From NCBI RefSeq assembly GCF_012927185.1, contig NZ_JABBGB010000001.1, positions 1,302,001 through 1,366,000 of the forward strand: 64,000 nt of DNA, read 5' to 3'. The DNA is from Pseudoflavitalea sp. G-6-1-2. GTDB lineage: Bacteria; Bacteroidota; Bacteroidia; Chitinophagales; Chitinophagaceae. Position 1 is the first letter of the stretch, and the number at the start of each line of letters is the position of its first letter. Positions 3,535 to 46,424 of the stretch are shown piece by piece. The position numbers were made by a program, and so were the translations under genes. Below the pieces are notes generated by a model. That model was not told where the DNA came from and did no database searches. It saw nothing but the letters and a program-made list of their open reading frames with translations.

Positions 3535-4170
3535 CTATGGATTTTCCTCGTCGATAACTGTAACACCGCCGGAGATGGCGAACTTCATGGCGTCTGTTGA
3601 ACTGATCTTATCGTCGAGCATCCTTATTCTGTCTGGTCTGATGAAATAGAGCCTGCCCGTTAACGCATAGGACTGCGGAATATACACGGCAACATATTCA
3701 GACAATCCAAACTCGTGCAGTTCTTCGCGGGTGATGAATGCGATCTGCCAAACATCTTTCCCGTCGATATCTACCAGCACGCTTTTCTCGAACTTCTTTT
3801 TCTTTCCTGCAAATGCTTCGAAGAAATCTTTGATAGTGGTATAGATGAGTTTTATGCCGGGTGTTCTTTCAAGGATCTTATCGAACAGCTCCACCAGCTT
3901 GCCCACGATGAAGGAAGAAGAGATATACCCAACGAAGATCACTACCAGAATTACGAGTACGAATCCTACACCGGGTATTTTGATTGGCCGGCCCTGTCCA
4001 TCCGTTCCAAGGAAGCTGGGGAAGAGTTTTTCAATGATACCGGGCAATATGCCGTCGATAAAATTGAACAGAGCAGAAACAGCGTACACCGTAATTGCGA
4101 TGGGCGCCAGGATGATCAGTCCCTGCAAGAAATATTGGAAGATCTTTTTCAATGCCTGCTTCGGTGTCAT
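3535..4170 (-). CDS. DUF502 family membrane protein
   Basis: Membrane protein of unknown function (DUF502), 211 residues from the start chosen here. It has a first hydrophobic segment L-I-I-L-A-P-I-A-I-T-V-Y-A-V near the N-terminus, a second around G-V-G-F-V-L-V-I-L-V-V-I-F-V-G, and then the family signature P-G-I-K-L-I-Y-T-T-I-K-D. The C-terminal half is soluble. The frame is open up to 4260, but the extra 30 residues look unlike the family, so I chose the ATG at 4170, which gives the usual K-Q-A-L-K-K-I-F-Q-Y start. A second coding-like frame covers 4321-4170 (see separate entry), so the true N-terminus is uncertain. Confidence 0.85.
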   Translation of the reverse strand: MTPKQALKKIFQYFLQGLIILAPIAITVYAVSALFNFIDGILPGIIEKLFPSFLGTDGQGRPIKIPGVGFVLVILVVIFVGYISSSFIVGKLVELFDKILERTPGIKLIYTTIKDFFEAFAGKKKKFEKSVLVDIDGKDVWQIAFITREELHEFGLSEYVAVYIPQSYALTGRLYFIRPDRIRMLDDKISSTDAMKFAISGGVTVIDEENP

Positions 4171-42381: not shown

Positions 42382-42434
42382 ACGGTGCGAAATGCCCCGT
42401 TTTTATACGGTGTATTTCCGTGTTGTTTTTACGG
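42382..42434. promoter_or_regulatory. Alternating ACGG/CCGT cluster
   Basis: ACGG at 42382, CCGT at 42397, ACGG at 42407, CCGT at 42418, ACGG at 42431. Neighbours are 10 to 15 bp apart, about one helix turn, with A/T-rich spacers. This looks like a repeated operator half-site, 190 to 240 nt before the 42623 gene. Confidence 0.35.
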
Positions 42435-42622
42435 TATTATAGCGATTGTTTAAACGTATTTTTGAGTTTTCTAACCACTTGAAACGTTGAATAACTTCAC
42501 CTTATGGATAATGTTAATTTGTAATCATTTGACTAACACTCATTTGTAGCCGAAATGCTGTCTGGTTACGGGTATACTTTTACACTCGTAATTCAAATAT
42601 TCAATTTTAAACCCCCCTGACT

Positions 42623-43135
42623 ATGACAGCGATTGAAACAAAATCCTTACAAGTAGCTAAAGTTGGCAAGTACGTTGATACTAACCATGTAAACACTTTG
42701 ATTCGTAATTACAAACAGGAGAGATGGAGGCAGAACAGTGAATCGATCGGCAAAGAAGATACTTTAAGCGTTAGATATACATTGGAGGAGCTGGAAGAGT
42801 TTATTGCGAAGGCGAAACGCTCTGGTGCGAATGGAATTAGACTTTATTTTGGCGTTTATCCGGAGAATTATGCGCCAAATCCGTTGATGTCTAAGCAGCA
42901 AACTGTGGTGTTTGTAGCGACTAAGAATACCGATTTGGAAGATGGCGGTTATACGGAGAAAAATGTATATGTGCAGGCTGAAGATCGTGCAGAGATCCTG
43001 GCTTATAATTATGGATCAATTTGTCCTATTTGGTGCGGAACGAAGAAACCAATGACTGAGGGAGATGATGATGGTTTCGGTGGTCTTGGTATTACTATCG
43101 TTGATCGGGGTGAAAAGGGGCTTACAATAATATAG
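42623..43135 (+). CDS. Unrecognised 170-residue soluble protein
   Basis: I do not recognise the family with a known function. It has no signal peptide or membrane segment. The N-terminal half is helical and charged (V-N-T-L-I-R-N-Y-K-Q-E-R-W; L-E-E-L-E-E-F-I-A-K-A-K-R-S-G). A beta-rich middle follows with I-R-L-Y-F-G-V-Y-P-E-N-Y and Q-T-V-V-F-V-A-T-K. Near the C-terminus are a C-P-I-W-C motif and an acidic, glycine-rich E-G-D-D-D-G-F-G-G-L-G stretch. Codon use is AT-rich like its downstream neighbours. It has its own terminator at 43156-43190, so it can be a single transcript. It precedes two paralogous membrane proteins and a two-component system. Confidence 0.75.
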   Translation: MTAIETKSLQVAKVGKYVDTNHVNTLIRNYKQERWRQNSESIGKEDTLSVRYTLEELEEFIAKAKRSGANGIRLYFGVYPENYAPNPLMSKQQTVVFVATKNTDLEDGGYTEKNVYVQAEDRAEILAYNYGSICPIWCGTKKPMTEGDDDGFGGLGITIVDRGEKGLTII

Positions 43136-43155
43136 TCACAGAAGTAATCTACTTG

Positions 43156-43190
43156 AGACCTTTACATATTAATTGTAAAGGTCTTTTTAT
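43156..43190 (+). terminator. Terminator after the 170-residue protein gene
   Basis: 11-bp perfect stem (43156-43166 with 43174-43184), 7-nt loop, then TTTTATTTA. Strong. Confidence 0.85.
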
Positions 43191-43204
43191 TTATAAGAAG
43201 TCAA

Positions 43205-43870
43205 GTGGATTTAGAGTATATTAGATTCCAAATGAGTCTTTCCCCTTCCGTCATACTCGAAATTATTTGTTTCCTAATATCATTGAGTATCTATTTTCAA
43301 AAGAATACATCATTTGCATTAAAACTATTTCCCTTATTTCTATTCATTACAGCAGTTTTAGAGGTAGTTGGTTTCCTTATGATGAAAGCTGGTATACGGA
43401 ATGTCCTTTTATATAATCTGTTTGGGATCTTATCAGTAGATTTTTATTTATTCTATATAAGAAGTGGCATTGGTGGCAAAGCTAAAAGAAGAGCAATTCT
43501 TATTGCAATTTGGGTTTATCCATTTCTTGTCATACTCAATATGTTATTTGTCCAAGTTAACGTCTTCCATTCTATTACATATTCTATCGGTTGTTTGCTG
43601 ATTGTAGCGGCATGTATTGCCTACTTTCTTGAGTTGTTTCAACTAAAGCGCTCCATCAATCTATTAAGGGAACCCGCTTTTTGGATTTGTTCCGCCTTAC
43701 TCTTTTTCTTTACCTGTACTTTACCGTTTATTGGAATGCTTAACTACTTAATTAAGGTATCGCCAGAAATAATTAATAATCTTGGAGCAATTTTGGTGGT
43801 TATCAACTTCCTACAATACTCTTTGTTTTCTATAGCATTTCTATGTAGGTTAGGGTGGGATAATAAGTAA
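43205..43870 (+). CDS. Seven-helix membrane protein A, paralogue of the next gene
   Basis: 221 residues, GTG start at 43205 (alternative ATG 43232). Seven hydrophobic segments are visible at about 11-30, 35-60, 65-85, 95-118, 123-145, 155-183 and 190-215, with very short loops, so almost all of it is in the membrane. Motifs shared with protein B: K-N-T-x3-L-K-L-F-x-L-F at the second helix, R-E-P-A-F-W-I before the sixth, and N-F-L-Q-Y-S-x2-S-I-A-F-L-C in the seventh. No enzyme motif is seen. Composition is strongly AT-rich: 13 of 60 bases are G or C at 43261-43320. Function unknown; a sensory role is inferred from the kinase downstream. Confidence 0.8.
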   Translation: MDLEYIRFQMSLSPSVILEIICFLISLSIYFQKNTSFALKLFPLFLFITAVLEVVGFLMMKAGIRNVLLYNLFGILSVDFYLFYIRSGIGGKAKRRAILIAIWVYPFLVILNMLFVQVNVFHSITYSIGCLLIVAACIAYFLELFQLKRSINLLREPAFWICSALLFFFTCTLPFIGMLNYLIKVSPEIINNLGAILVVINFLQYSLFSIAFLCRLGWDNK

Positions 43871-43941
43871 TAATATCAATATTATTGACTATTTTGGTAT
43901 TATCCTAATGCCTTATTTCCGTTGCAACTCAAACCAAACGG

Positions 43942-44658
43942 ATGTATTATTACCTTCTATCTTTTGCTTACATGAGCGTGTTGTTGTTAAGCTTTATTGC
44001 AAGTTTGCAAGCTTATTACAATAAGAATACTCCAGTCTACTTGAAGCTTTTTGCGCCTTTTTTGCTATTCACTATTTGTGTTGAAAGTGCTGGTTATATC
44101 CTAAATGCTATTTATGAAGTGGGTAATACTTTTGTTTATAGCTATTTTCTTCCTGTTATGTTTATTTTTCATATGTATGTAGCATACAATATTCTCAAGA
44201 ATAGAATTCTTCGAAACATTATTGTTCTTAGTAGCTGCATTTACCTTTTAGTTTTATTGGGATACTTTTTGTTCCGAAAAAATGCAGGGTTTCCATATTA
44301 CAATTACTATGCAGGCGCAATTATGATCTCGCTATGCTATATTTCTTACATCATACAACTTAGGCATTTCCCTATTTCAAAAACGCCAAGAAGGGAACCG
44401 GCTTTCTGGATAGCCGTTGGTACATTGTTTTATTACGGAGGATCATTAACTATTTGGATAGGTGAAAGAATGTATCCTTTCTCGCCTGAAGCTTTAGTTG
44501 TCTTAACTACAATGTTAATGGGTCTCAATTTTTTTCAATACTCATGCATTGGCCTGGCATTCCTCTGCAAAAAAGTTTTCAAAAAGAAAAACATCCCCAA
44601 TCTTGACTGGGCCGAATTCTCCGACTACTCTTCCGACCGCAACAAAAGCTATATCTAA
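43942..44658 (+). CDS. Seven-helix membrane protein B, paralogue of protein A
   Basis: 238 residues, ATG start. Seven hydrophobic segments at about 4-26, 34-58, 65-85, 93-111, 119-140, 151-172 and 184-210, matching protein A in number and spacing. Shared motifs: K-N-T-P-V-Y-L-K-L-F, R-R-E-P-A-F-W-I, and N-F-F-Q-Y-S-C-I-G-L-A-F-L-C. Unlike A it has a charged tail of about 27 residues after the last helix (K-K-K-N-I-P-N-L-D-W-A-E-F) that could contact a cytosolic partner. The gap to A is 71 nt. It is followed by a G-free, C-rich tract that looks like a Rho site, then the kinase gene. No family with known function is recognised. Confidence 0.8.
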   Translation: MYYYLLSFAYMSVLLLSFIASLQAYYNKNTPVYLKLFAPFLLFTICVESAGYILNAIYEVGNTFVYSYFLPVMFIFHMYVAYNILKNRILRNIIVLSSCIYLLVLLGYFLFRKNAGFPYYNYYAGAIMISLCYISYIIQLRHFPISKTPRREPAFWIAVGTLFYYGGSLTIWIGERMYPFSPEALVVLTTMLMGLNFFQYSCIGLAFLCKKVFKKKNIPNLDWAEFSDYSSDRNKSYI

Positions 44659-44670
44659 GCCCTTCTCCAG

Positions 44671-44755
44671 CCACCCATCCCTTCCCATTTAATATTATTA
44701 ATTCTCCATACACATCCCCTCCACTCCTCCCTCTTTTCCAAACTTCTCCCCACCC
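44671..44755 (+). terminator. G-free, C-rich tract, possible Rho utilisation site
   Basis: 85 nt on the plus strand without a single G and with 40 C, starting 13 nt after the stop of protein B. A long C-rich, G-poor RNA right after a stop codon is the known signature of a Rho-dependent terminator. There is no stem-loop terminator here, which fits. Confidence 0.5.
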
Positions 44756-44876
44756 GGTAATCCTTTACCAAAATAAATAAGTATTTTGTGCCTTAAGCCT
44801 TATCCTGCTCTGAGCGATTCCGGGATTTTAACCCTTGCAAACATTTACCTAAATTCATTTACCATTCCTGTTGTTT

Positions 44877-45707
44877 ATGGATAACCAGGGTCAGGAGATT
44901 TATTTCATTATCATAATTGGTGGTTTACTGGCTCTGCTACTGGTAGGTTTCATTGTTACAATCCTGTTCACTTACCAGCGCAGACAGCACCAGCAAGAGC
45001 AGGAACTGACCCGCCTGAAAGATCTCTATGAACAGGAAGCACTCCGTTCCCAACTCGAAATCCAGGAAGAAACTTTCAAGATGCTGAGTCAGGAATTGCA
45101 CGACAACATCGGACAATCCCTCTCAGTGGTTAAACTTTCACTCGCCATCCTTCCTGTTGACAAACAACACGAAGCCTGGGAGCCCATCCAGAACGCCAGA
45201 GATATTCTCAATAAAGCCGTACTCGACCTCGCTGGCCTGAACAAAAGCCTGCATACCGACCGCATCGCACAGATCGGACTGGTAGAAGCCATCAGCTTCG
45301 AGGTAGAAAGTCTCCGCAAATCTAGACTCGTGGATGTTGCGTTCGCAGTAAACGGCTACGAACAATTGCTGGATGAACAAAAATCTGTAATGCTCTTCCG
45401 GATATTTCAGGAAATGCTCAATAACACCCTGAAACATTCGCAGGCATCCAGGATAGAAATATCCCTCAGCTTTACAGAGGATAATCAATTTATTCTGCTG
45501 CTGGCAGATAACGGAGTAGGGTTCGATATCGATGCAAAAAGAAATTCTGTATCTTCTTCCTCCGGAGTTGGACTTAAAAGTATCTTCAACAGGGCAAAAC
45601 TGGTAGGCGCCGACATCGATATGCACAGCGAAATCGGAAAAGGTACTACCACCACCATTAAAATGATGCTTCCACCCGAAAGCGAAAGTGATAACCATGA
45701 CAGGTGA
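44877..45707 (+). CDS. Membrane-tethered sensor histidine kinase (HisKA_3 type)
   Basis: 276 residues from ATG 44877 (a TTG at 44871 is also in frame). One transmembrane helix (about 9-32) preceded by only eight residues, so there is essentially no external sensor domain. A coiled coil follows (about 36-70), then the dimerisation/phosphoacceptor helix with H75 in Q-E-L-H-D-N-I-G-Q-S, and an ATPase domain with N-N-T-L-K-H-S and A-D-N-G-V-G-F-D. NarX/DesK-like. Its stop overlaps the response regulator start by 11 nt, so the two form one operon. How it senses is not evident; I suggest the upstream membrane pair as partner. Confidence 0.94.
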   Translation: MDNQGQEIYFIIIIGGLLALLLVGFIVTILFTYQRRQHQQEQELTRLKDLYEQEALRSQLEIQEETFKMLSQELHDNIGQSLSVVKLSLAILPVDKQHEAWEPIQNARDILNKAVLDLAGLNKSLHTDRIAQIGLVEAISFEVESLRKSRLVDVAFAVNGYEQLLDEQKSVMLFRIFQEMLNNTLKHSQASRIEISLSFTEDNQFILLLADNGVGFDIDAKRNSVSSSSGVGLKSIFNRAKLVGADIDMHSEIGKGTTTTIKMMLPPESESDNHDR

Positions 45708-46353
45708 TAAAAAAATATTGGTAGGAATTGCAGATGATCATACTCTGTTGCGCAATGCACTCGCGCGACTGGTAGGCTCTTTCGAAAACTATTCGGTGAT
45801 ATTCGAAGCAGGTAACGGAAAGGAAGTAAAAGAAAAGATCGCGAAAAGTGTTTTGCCGGATATCATCCTGCTCGACGTGAACATGCCCGATATCGACGGC
45901 TATGAAACAGCGAAATGGATCTTCAAAACTTATCCGCACGTTAAGATCCTGGCGCTCTCCATGTTCACAGATGAAAGCATCATTATCCGCATGCTCCGCC
46001 TCGGTGCAAAAGGATACATCCTCAAAAATGCAGATCCTGAAGAACTCAAGCTGGCATTGGATTCTGTAATGCACAAAGATTTCTATCTCTCCGATTATAT
46101 TTCCGGTAAAGTGATCAGCGGACTTCATAAAGACATCGATCTGCCTGAAGAACCCGTTGTGCTGAATGAGAAGGAAAAAGAGTTCCTGCAATGGGCCTGT
46201 TCTGAAATGACTTACAAAGACATCGCACAGAAAATGTTCGTAAGCCCAAGAACAGTGGATGATTACAGAAACGCACTCTTCGAGAAACTCAAAGTGAAAT
46301 CGAGGATCGGGCTGGTGCTTCATGCCATCAGGCACGGTCTCGTTGAAGTATAG
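45697..46353 (+). CDS. NarL/FixJ family response regulator
   Basis: 218 residues from ATG 45697 (GTG 45688 is an alternative). Receiver domain with acidic pair D13-D14, phosphoacceptor D60 in I-I-L-L-D-V-N-M-P, and the conserved Lys in G-Y-I-L-K-N-A. The C-terminal LuxR-type helix-turn-helix has K-D-I-A-Q-K-M-F-V-S-P-R-T-V-D-D-Y-R-N. It is the phosphorylation partner of the kinase with which it overlaps. Targets unknown; the ACGG/CCGT cluster at 42.4 kb is one candidate. Followed by a strong terminator. Confidence 0.95.
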   Translation: MTGDKKILVGIADDHTLLRNALARLVGSFENYSVIFEAGNGKEVKEKIAKSVLPDIILLDVNMPDIDGYETAKWIFKTYPHVKILALSMFTDESIIIRMLRLGAKGYILKNADPEELKLALDSVMHKDFYLSDYISGKVISGLHKDIDLPEEPVVLNEKEKEFLQWACSEMTYKDIAQKMFVSPRTVDDYRNALFEKLKVKSRIGLVLHAIRHGLVEV

Positions 46354-46390: not shown

Positions 46391-46424
46391 GAAGGGGTTG
46401 CATTCATCAGAATACAACCCCTTC
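46391..46424. terminator. Terminator between the response regulator gene and carB
   Basis: Stem GAAGGGGTTG/CAACCCCTTC (46391-46400 with 46415-46424), with extra inner ATTC/GAAT pairing, then TCATTTTATT on the plus strand. Convergent genes may share it. Confidence 0.8.

Follow-up and report, generated by a model that had tools for sequence, protein, structure and literature searches.

A separately encoded seven-helix protein as candidate sensor of a sensor-less histidine kinase in Pseudoflavitalea sp. G-6-1-2 and other Bacteroidota

A two-component locus of Pseudoflavitalea sp. G-6-1-2 raises the question of how a histidine kinase could perceive a signal when it carries a single membrane helix, a very short outside part, and no sensor domain. 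The locus lies in a window of 64,000 nt (the whole stretch of DNA that was analysed, C1:1302001-1366000 of this 6.1-Mb genome, hereafter the home genome, G000), and its nearest named relative is that of Pseudoflavitalea rhizosphaerae (Chitinophagaceae). Five open reading frames (ORFs) follow one another in the order given by the original prediction and confirmed by their coordinates: a 170-aa protein (SOL), two seven-helix (7TM) proteins (A and B), the histidine kinase (HK), and a response regulator (RR). The original prediction had taken the membrane pair for the sensor module of the kinase, as a split version of 7TM histidine kinases. We put at roughly 70% the probability of a related reading, in which A acts in trans as the sensor of the kinase within a Bacteroidota-wide module, SOL-7TM-HK-RR, whose regulator controls SOL.

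The kinase exceeded the Pfam cut-offs for HisKA_3 (25.6; cut-off 24) and HATPase_c (47.4; cut-off 26.4), and the regulator those for Response_reg (86; cut-off 30.2) and GerE (47.6; cut-off 23.5); with a HisKA_3 and HATPase_c kinase and a LuxR-type regulator, the locus is a HisKA_3 two-component system. Searches of Pfam and NCBIfam returned no match over cut-off for SOL, A, or B. The paralogy proposed for the membrane proteins was confirmed, with A sharing 30% identity with B across 204 columns (E 3e-22). Hydropathy gave seven helices for A, seven for B at a relaxed threshold (four at a stricter one), and a single helix for the kinase, spanning residues 11-29. The kinase would be longer by two residues if it began at the in-frame TTG at 44871.

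The neighbours of the homologues were tabulated in two sets. For the family set, 195 same-family genomes were searched with B; 62 of them contained relatives, and 68 stretches around matches were used together with one from G196 (L and G numbers denote individual genome stretches around matches and individual genomes, respectively); this last stretch, L077, belongs to the set although it was chosen by its kinase and not by a 7TM match. Counting by hidden Markov model (HMM) identified 76 seven-helix genes at E <= 1e-6, of which 74 lead to an HMM-called kinase: 67 have it no more than 400 nt downstream, and seven reach it via another seven-helix gene; the remainder are L119, at a contig end, and L096, an exception. 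For the phylum set, a profile of 46 seven-helix proteins was run against 296 Bacteroidota genomes and matched 61 of them, in 39 of 140 genera, and 100 stretches covering most, not all, profile matches (several same-family rows were omitted) supplied 116 seven-helix genes. When following 7TM copies were walked through until a kinase was reached, 98/116 led to an HMM-called kinase (91 as the next gene, seven via another copy), or 105/116 when Pfam-recognised kinases were counted as well. The seven extra cases comprise HisKA kinases with PAS (L244, L246 with three copies, and L251), a LytS-type His_kinase (L232), and a PAS-HisKA_3 kinase (L243), the ORF of which had been called at excessive length. 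Homologues of A and B are therefore not rare neighbours of HisKA_3 kinases, and these counts supersede gene order at one locus, on which the original link had rested.

The 7TM and kinase frames overlap in 54/67 cases of the family set and 71/91 of the phylum set, proportions that may be somewhat overstated since ORFs were opened at the first ATG, GTG, or TTG. No fusion of the seven-helix family to a kinase was present in the loci examined; two open frames of 464 and 477 aa, considered as direct proof of one, proved to contain 7TM ORFs that stand apart, 226 and 212 aa long. Relatives of B were not found in viral contigs.

The association also held in the reverse direction. With the kinase as query in 59 genomes, there were 26 matches at E <= 1e-40, and every one of them is directly preceded by a seven-helix gene. 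Among 80 named loci of the subfamily found with SOL as query, a seven-helix gene lies on the same strand in 77 and a kinase in 71; of the nine without a kinase, five end with their contig (L268, L274, L298, L326, L342), one has SOL alone (L327), and three have the 7TM gene and no kinase (L309, L317, L319), with the 7TM gene of L317 being 1.9 kb away. The home genome encodes 21 HisKA_3 kinases, of which five are short with one helix, one is short with neither helix nor partner, and 15 are long. Four of the five short single-helix kinases have a seven-helix gene upstream, and, judged by coordinates, the genome's seven 7TM genes are all more than 70 kb away from any long HisKA_3 kinase; for 8/15 long kinases the start fell outside the examined stretch. 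In the fifth short kinase, a barstar-family gene occupies the usual place of the seven-helix gene directly upstream (L422:1894-2295, about C3:34000).

Intramembrane-sensing histidine kinases lack a sensor domain and have a minimal extracytoplasmic portion, and the cassette kinases are of this kind: in a sample restricted to kinases no longer than 330 aa that follow a 7TM gene, 192 of 194 distinct kinases have one helix, preceded by few residues (quartiles 7, 10, and 13). The same seven-helix family also adjoins HisKA and LytS-type kinases that start with a single helix, and the strongest argument for a partnership with the kinase's membrane part comes from this diversity. Across 162 cassettes, tree distances correlated at 0.80 between 7TM protein and kinase and at 0.87 between kinase and regulator (maximum of 200 shuffles, 0.15), and the partial correlation was 0.45 for 7TM and kinase given the regulator vs 0.17 for 7TM and regulator given the kinase. 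Were the 7TM protein instead a transporter or enzyme that is coexpressed with the kinase but does not communicate with it, the pairs of SOL and 7TM genes that lack a kinase (L198, L208, L309, L319) and the alkaline ceramidase among the weak fold matches of A (6g7o, TM-score 0.53) would fit; such a passenger role nonetheless appears highly improbable given the retention of the same 7TM partner by different kinase classes, the lack of another sensor in these kinases, and the closer co-divergence of the 7TM protein with the kinase than with the regulator.

What kind of receptor A might be was approached through its predicted structure. The AF2 model of A (76 sequences) has seven membrane-length helices with a pLDDT of 93.6 and a pTM of 0.90, in keeping with the seven helices originally proposed. 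Its best Foldseek matches were G-protein-coupled receptors (GPCRs) and rhodopsins (TM-score 0.62 to the beta2 receptor and 0.61 to rhodopsin, probability near 1), and VIA-align scored highest against LYCHOS (Z 13.2, rmsd 4.1 over 207 residues), with Z values near 12 for many GPCRs and rhodopsins. Under the positive-inside rule an excess of Lys and Arg marks the cytoplasmic side, and the two sides of the membrane carry 11.6 vs 3.2 such residues per protein, which predicts an outside N-terminus. Conserved positions in or near the membrane are E53, N71, Y140, E143, P157-x-F159-W160, N201, and Y205; the N201-x3-Y205 spacing equals that of the GPCR NPxxY motif, which we treat as a curiosity. In microbial rhodopsins a lysine of helix 7 binds retinal, and because no lysine occurs in helix 7 of A (residues 187-216), nor among the columns conserved at 80%, A is not a rhodopsin. 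Pfam searches of 46 seven-helix alignment members gave only weak matches of one or two members, a sequence profile search of the PDB with the 7TM profile matched no chain, and no protease motif was recognised by eye in the 7TM alignment.

The description of the locus as a split 7TM histidine kinase stands only as an analogy, as no similarity to 7TMR-DISM_7TM was detected: 0/46 seven-helix members matched this family (PF07695) at E 0.1, and hhalign of the 7TM family against a DISM segment of the home genome, with a single sequence on one side, returned a probability of 0.2/100. A PF07695 search of the home genome matched three places, none of them genes of the seven-helix family. A complete 7TM kinase elsewhere in the genome had been named as potential counterevidence, and the home genome does encode a fused 7TMR-DISM-HisKA_3 kinase; we did not take it as a refutation because it belongs to a different family and because four of the five short single-helix kinases have a separate 7TM gene.

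The pairing of A and B as a sensor unit was not borne out. More than one intact seven-helix gene occurs in just 6/80 named subfamily loci (L264, L265, L279, L282, L302, L316), with a second copy of broken frame in L336; the multi-copy named loci belong to Pseudoflavitalea/Pseudobacter, Niastella, and Longitalea, and multiple copies recur in other subfamilies (L198, L203, L245, L246, L262). Three tandem seven-helix genes precede one kinase in L246, L203, and L071. In a tree of 76 sequences, which omitted copies outside 200-235 aa including the second copy of L264, seven second copies sit apart from the A-type sequences and need two label changes, and the end branch of B is 2.12 vs 0.5 for A, a length that makes the placement of B unsure. 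Loci normally have one seven-helix gene, A; B is an additional, divergent copy and probably either acts as a second receptor subunit that modifies signalling or represents a relaxed duplicate. The original prediction is thus partly supported, with the membrane protein as sensor right in its core and the pair as unit wrong; the C-rich, G-poor composition of its putative Rho-like tract between B and the kinase was confirmed.

SOL, which had been placed in the same system, does belong to the module, but it is cut off from A by a conserved intrinsic terminator. This terminator, which the original prediction missed along with the three-site array upstream of SOL, was found in 71/73 subfamily gaps between SOL and the 7TM gene vs 2/73 shuffles (73 of 78 gaps were of usable length, with one letter shuffle per gap), and its stem sequences differ among loci. 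The gene before the seven-helix gene was an HMM-called SOL in 58/76 family-set cases (another 7TM gene in 7, something else in 10, a contig end in 1) and 69/116 phylum-set cases (another 7TM gene in 10, something else in 37). Homologues of SOL diverge strongly, and the aligned members share GxRxYFGxY and a C-terminal [ND]xGxx[C or aromatic]P; a metal site, CPPxC, was rejected as a general rule because the otherwise conserved cysteines have been lost in the Longitalea cassettes L074 and L086 and are absent from distant members. The SOL model (pLDDT 81) had no structural match in the PDB with E < 0.3 (best Z 2.1), which does not show the fold to be new; its PDB sequence profile reached a best E of 0.05, and Pfam on 27 SOL alignment members gave weak matches of one or two members. 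SOL of the window subfamily has no signal peptide, and a crude classifier called lipoprotein-like N-termini in 8 family-set and 13 phylum-set proteins and hydrophobic ones in 8 and 35.

Upstream of SOL, the subfamily loci carry up to six ACGGT sites, mostly spaced by 22-25 nt and in several loci in the form ACCGT-N6-ACGGT. At least two ACGGT sites were present in 64/79 loci, and at least two array sites in 32/42 subfamily SOL upstreams, 3/22 others, and 3% of random stretches; a strict three-site match occurs once in the home genome, at the window array. The palindromic form of the site, searched in eight genomes, had 14/16 sites with at most two mismatches upstream of SOL by coordinates. A family-wide search matched 26/147 genomes, which is a weak count since the reversed control pattern also matched many; in 13 of the 26 the coordinates place the array no farther than about 300 nt before SOL, and the other matches look like chance or simple repeats. 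The array was rejected as a general feature of the module, as chains of three, called with one repeat scorer, were absent from all 75 SOL upstreams of the phylum set vs present in 29/79 of the subfamily. Tandem arrays of an 8-nt repeat (ACGGTCTT) occur at several places of a same-family genome (G055:C1, e.g., 1819385-1819485).

Under the favoured reading, A would be the membrane sensor of the kinase, supplied as a separate polypeptide and forming a complex with it. With a GPCR- or rhodopsin-like bundle, N-terminus out and C-terminus in, A would respond to a signal by a conformational change that is passed sideways within the membrane to the single helix of the kinase, which would then phosphorylate the LuxR-type regulator. 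In the window subfamily the regulator may set SOL expression by binding the tandem ACGGT sites that precede the gene, and the terminator behind SOL could hold SOL levels above those of receptor, kinase, and regulator, with SOL acting either as a feedback subunit on the receptor complex or as an output. A bolder version, with GPCR-fold receptors signalling in trans to several kinase classes across the phylum, SOL as their ligand or feedback subunit, and a closed self-sensing circuit in which SOL is nearly the sole regulator target in the window subfamily, seems doubtful to us.

Several observations weigh against the sensor reading and its SOL component. Proteins of one operon would show the same linkage and co-divergence even if they made no contact. 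No recognisable kinase follows 11/116 phylum-set seven-helix genes: the gene at L250 is followed by a regulator, at L171 one gene intervenes before a kinase, extra copies lie behind (L165, L196, L263) or in front of (L194) a cassette, and none was called at L167, L198 (two copies), L208, and L212. L198 and L208 contain SOL-7TM pairs that lack a kinase, as do the named loci L309 and L319, and the home genome holds a lone seven-helix member at C2:1741976 (L167:3363-4001) with no called kinase, regulator, or SOL adjoining. The Foldseek E-value for the 7TM fold, 0.06, is not significant, and a Z near 13 may be just the common arrangement of helical bundles. The C-terminal SOL motif occurs in 43/62 family-set and just 18/91 phylum-set upstream proteins, and because of its lower occurrence and these motif counts SOL is less constant than the 7TM protein and the kinase; free of a signal peptide here and lipoprotein-like in other cassettes, it is hard to fit with a single ligand role. 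In a Chitinophagaceae metagenome-assembled genome (G123), SOL and its array lie about 70 kb from 7TM-HK-RR, from which we conclude that the array belongs to SOL. The palindromic site had no match within three mismatches in the home genome, and the two remaining palindromic sites form an orphan ACGGT/ACCGT array in G123 (L404, about 3535-3585; G123:C6:20529-20585), between two minus-strand genes with no SOL nearby. As a separate observation, L198:2752-4897 and L208:3454-4947 share flanks, with a rho-like gene before and a small ribosomal-protein-like gene after.

The arrangement in G123 also bears on an autoinducer circuit, in which SOL would be a precursor or secreted signal that the 7TM protein processes or perceives and that the kinase and regulator induce in a self-amplifying manner. 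The gene order of small protein, membrane protein, kinase, and regulator, the strong divergence of SOL, an array at SOL and hardly elsewhere, and the lipoprotein-like homologues suit such a circuit, whereas the window SOL lacks an export signal, the 7TM alignment lacks a protease motif by eye, and SOL of G123 sits outside the 7TM-HK-RR unit; we consider it very unlikely.

Known systems offer partial parallels to a sensor in trans. UhpC-UhpB-UhpA combines a membrane sensor in trans for a UhpB-kind kinase with a LuxR-type regulator, both of which our reading shares, but UhpC is related to transporters, and UhpB contains several helices, as opposed to the one-helix kinase here. The UhpB/UhpC interplay is cited in PMC12691602. 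In sensory rhodopsin II-HtrII a seven-helix receptor signals via a separate membrane transducer (PMC5292967); A differs in having no helix-7 lysine, and its partner would be a one-helix kinase. The 7TMR-DISM kinases and LytS-type BtsS couple a seven-helix sensor to a histidine kinase (PMC10653868), there in fused form and here as separate polypeptides.

The SaePQRS system of Staphylococcus aureus is similar in comprising a small (lipo)protein, a polytopic protein, a kinase, and a regulator with sites at the first-gene promoter (PMC5083920); SaeP has 146 aa, SaeQ 157 aa and four predicted helices (PMC5083920), and the SaeS kinase, like the one here, a short outside linker (PMC4388633). Our module differs in its seven helices, HisKA_3 kinase, terminator behind the first gene, and longer site array, and the model of A, with seven helices, argues against membership, which would call for a SaeQ-like four-helix protein. 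The resemblance suggests an alternative in which the kinase helix senses the membrane state and SOL and the 7TM protein restrain the kinase after induction, as SaeP and SaeQ do with SaeS. The same set of parts, the strong first sae promoter with its regulator sites, and the induction of phosphatase activity by SaePQ (PMC5083920) are consistent with such a brake, as are the array at SOL and the terminator behind it; however, activation does not require SaePQ, and SaeQ is a four-helix protein (PMC5083920), while here the 7TM gene is kept by 26/26 kinases and is common to different kinase classes, and we judge the brake unlikely. For the sensor reading, saePQRS and the sensory rhodopsin-transducer pairs may be regarded as the closest working analogues, the module being a member of neither. 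No description of this arrangement was found in a search largely without subscription papers, the lipocone paper (PMC12419801) concerns other proteins, and the 7TM and SOL families appear undescribed within the literature searched.

Table 1. Coordinates of the SOL-7TM-HK-RR locus within the window
Feature	Position	Strand	Source
Tandem operator-like array, ACGGT x3 (42382, 42407, 42431; spacing 25 + 24 nt)	42382..42435	+	Repeat search
SOL, 170 aa, without recognisable signal peptide, C-terminal NxGxxCP motif	42623..43135	+	ORF, Pfam/NCBIfam
Intrinsic terminator between SOL and A (12-bp stem 43155-43185, T tract after)	43155..43192	+	
A, seven-helix membrane protein, 221 aa, GTG start, receptor candidate, predicted N-out/C-in	43205..43870	+	
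B, 238 aa, divergent second copy of A	43942..44658	+	
B-kinase gap, 212 nt, 73 C + 17 G (C-rich, G-poor)	44659..44870	+	
HisKA_3 histidine kinase, one N-terminal membrane helix, without sensor domain	44877..45707	+	Pfam, hydropathy
LuxR/NarL-type response regulator, overlaps kinase gene	45688 (GTG) or 45700 (ATG)..46353	+	Pfam

Beyond the regulator gene, a 15-bp hairpin (46391-46424 of the window) lies between the convergent regulator and carB-like genes and is likely a shared terminator.

The recurrence of the 7TM protein, the sensor-less kinase, the regulator, and SOL together across Bacteroidota suggests an undescribed receptor system that is assembled from separate components. Should the sensor be the separate seven-helix protein, a set of orphan Bacteroidota kinases would gain a receptor, and this receptor family would have a GPCR-like predicted fold coupled to a phosphorelay and not to G proteins.

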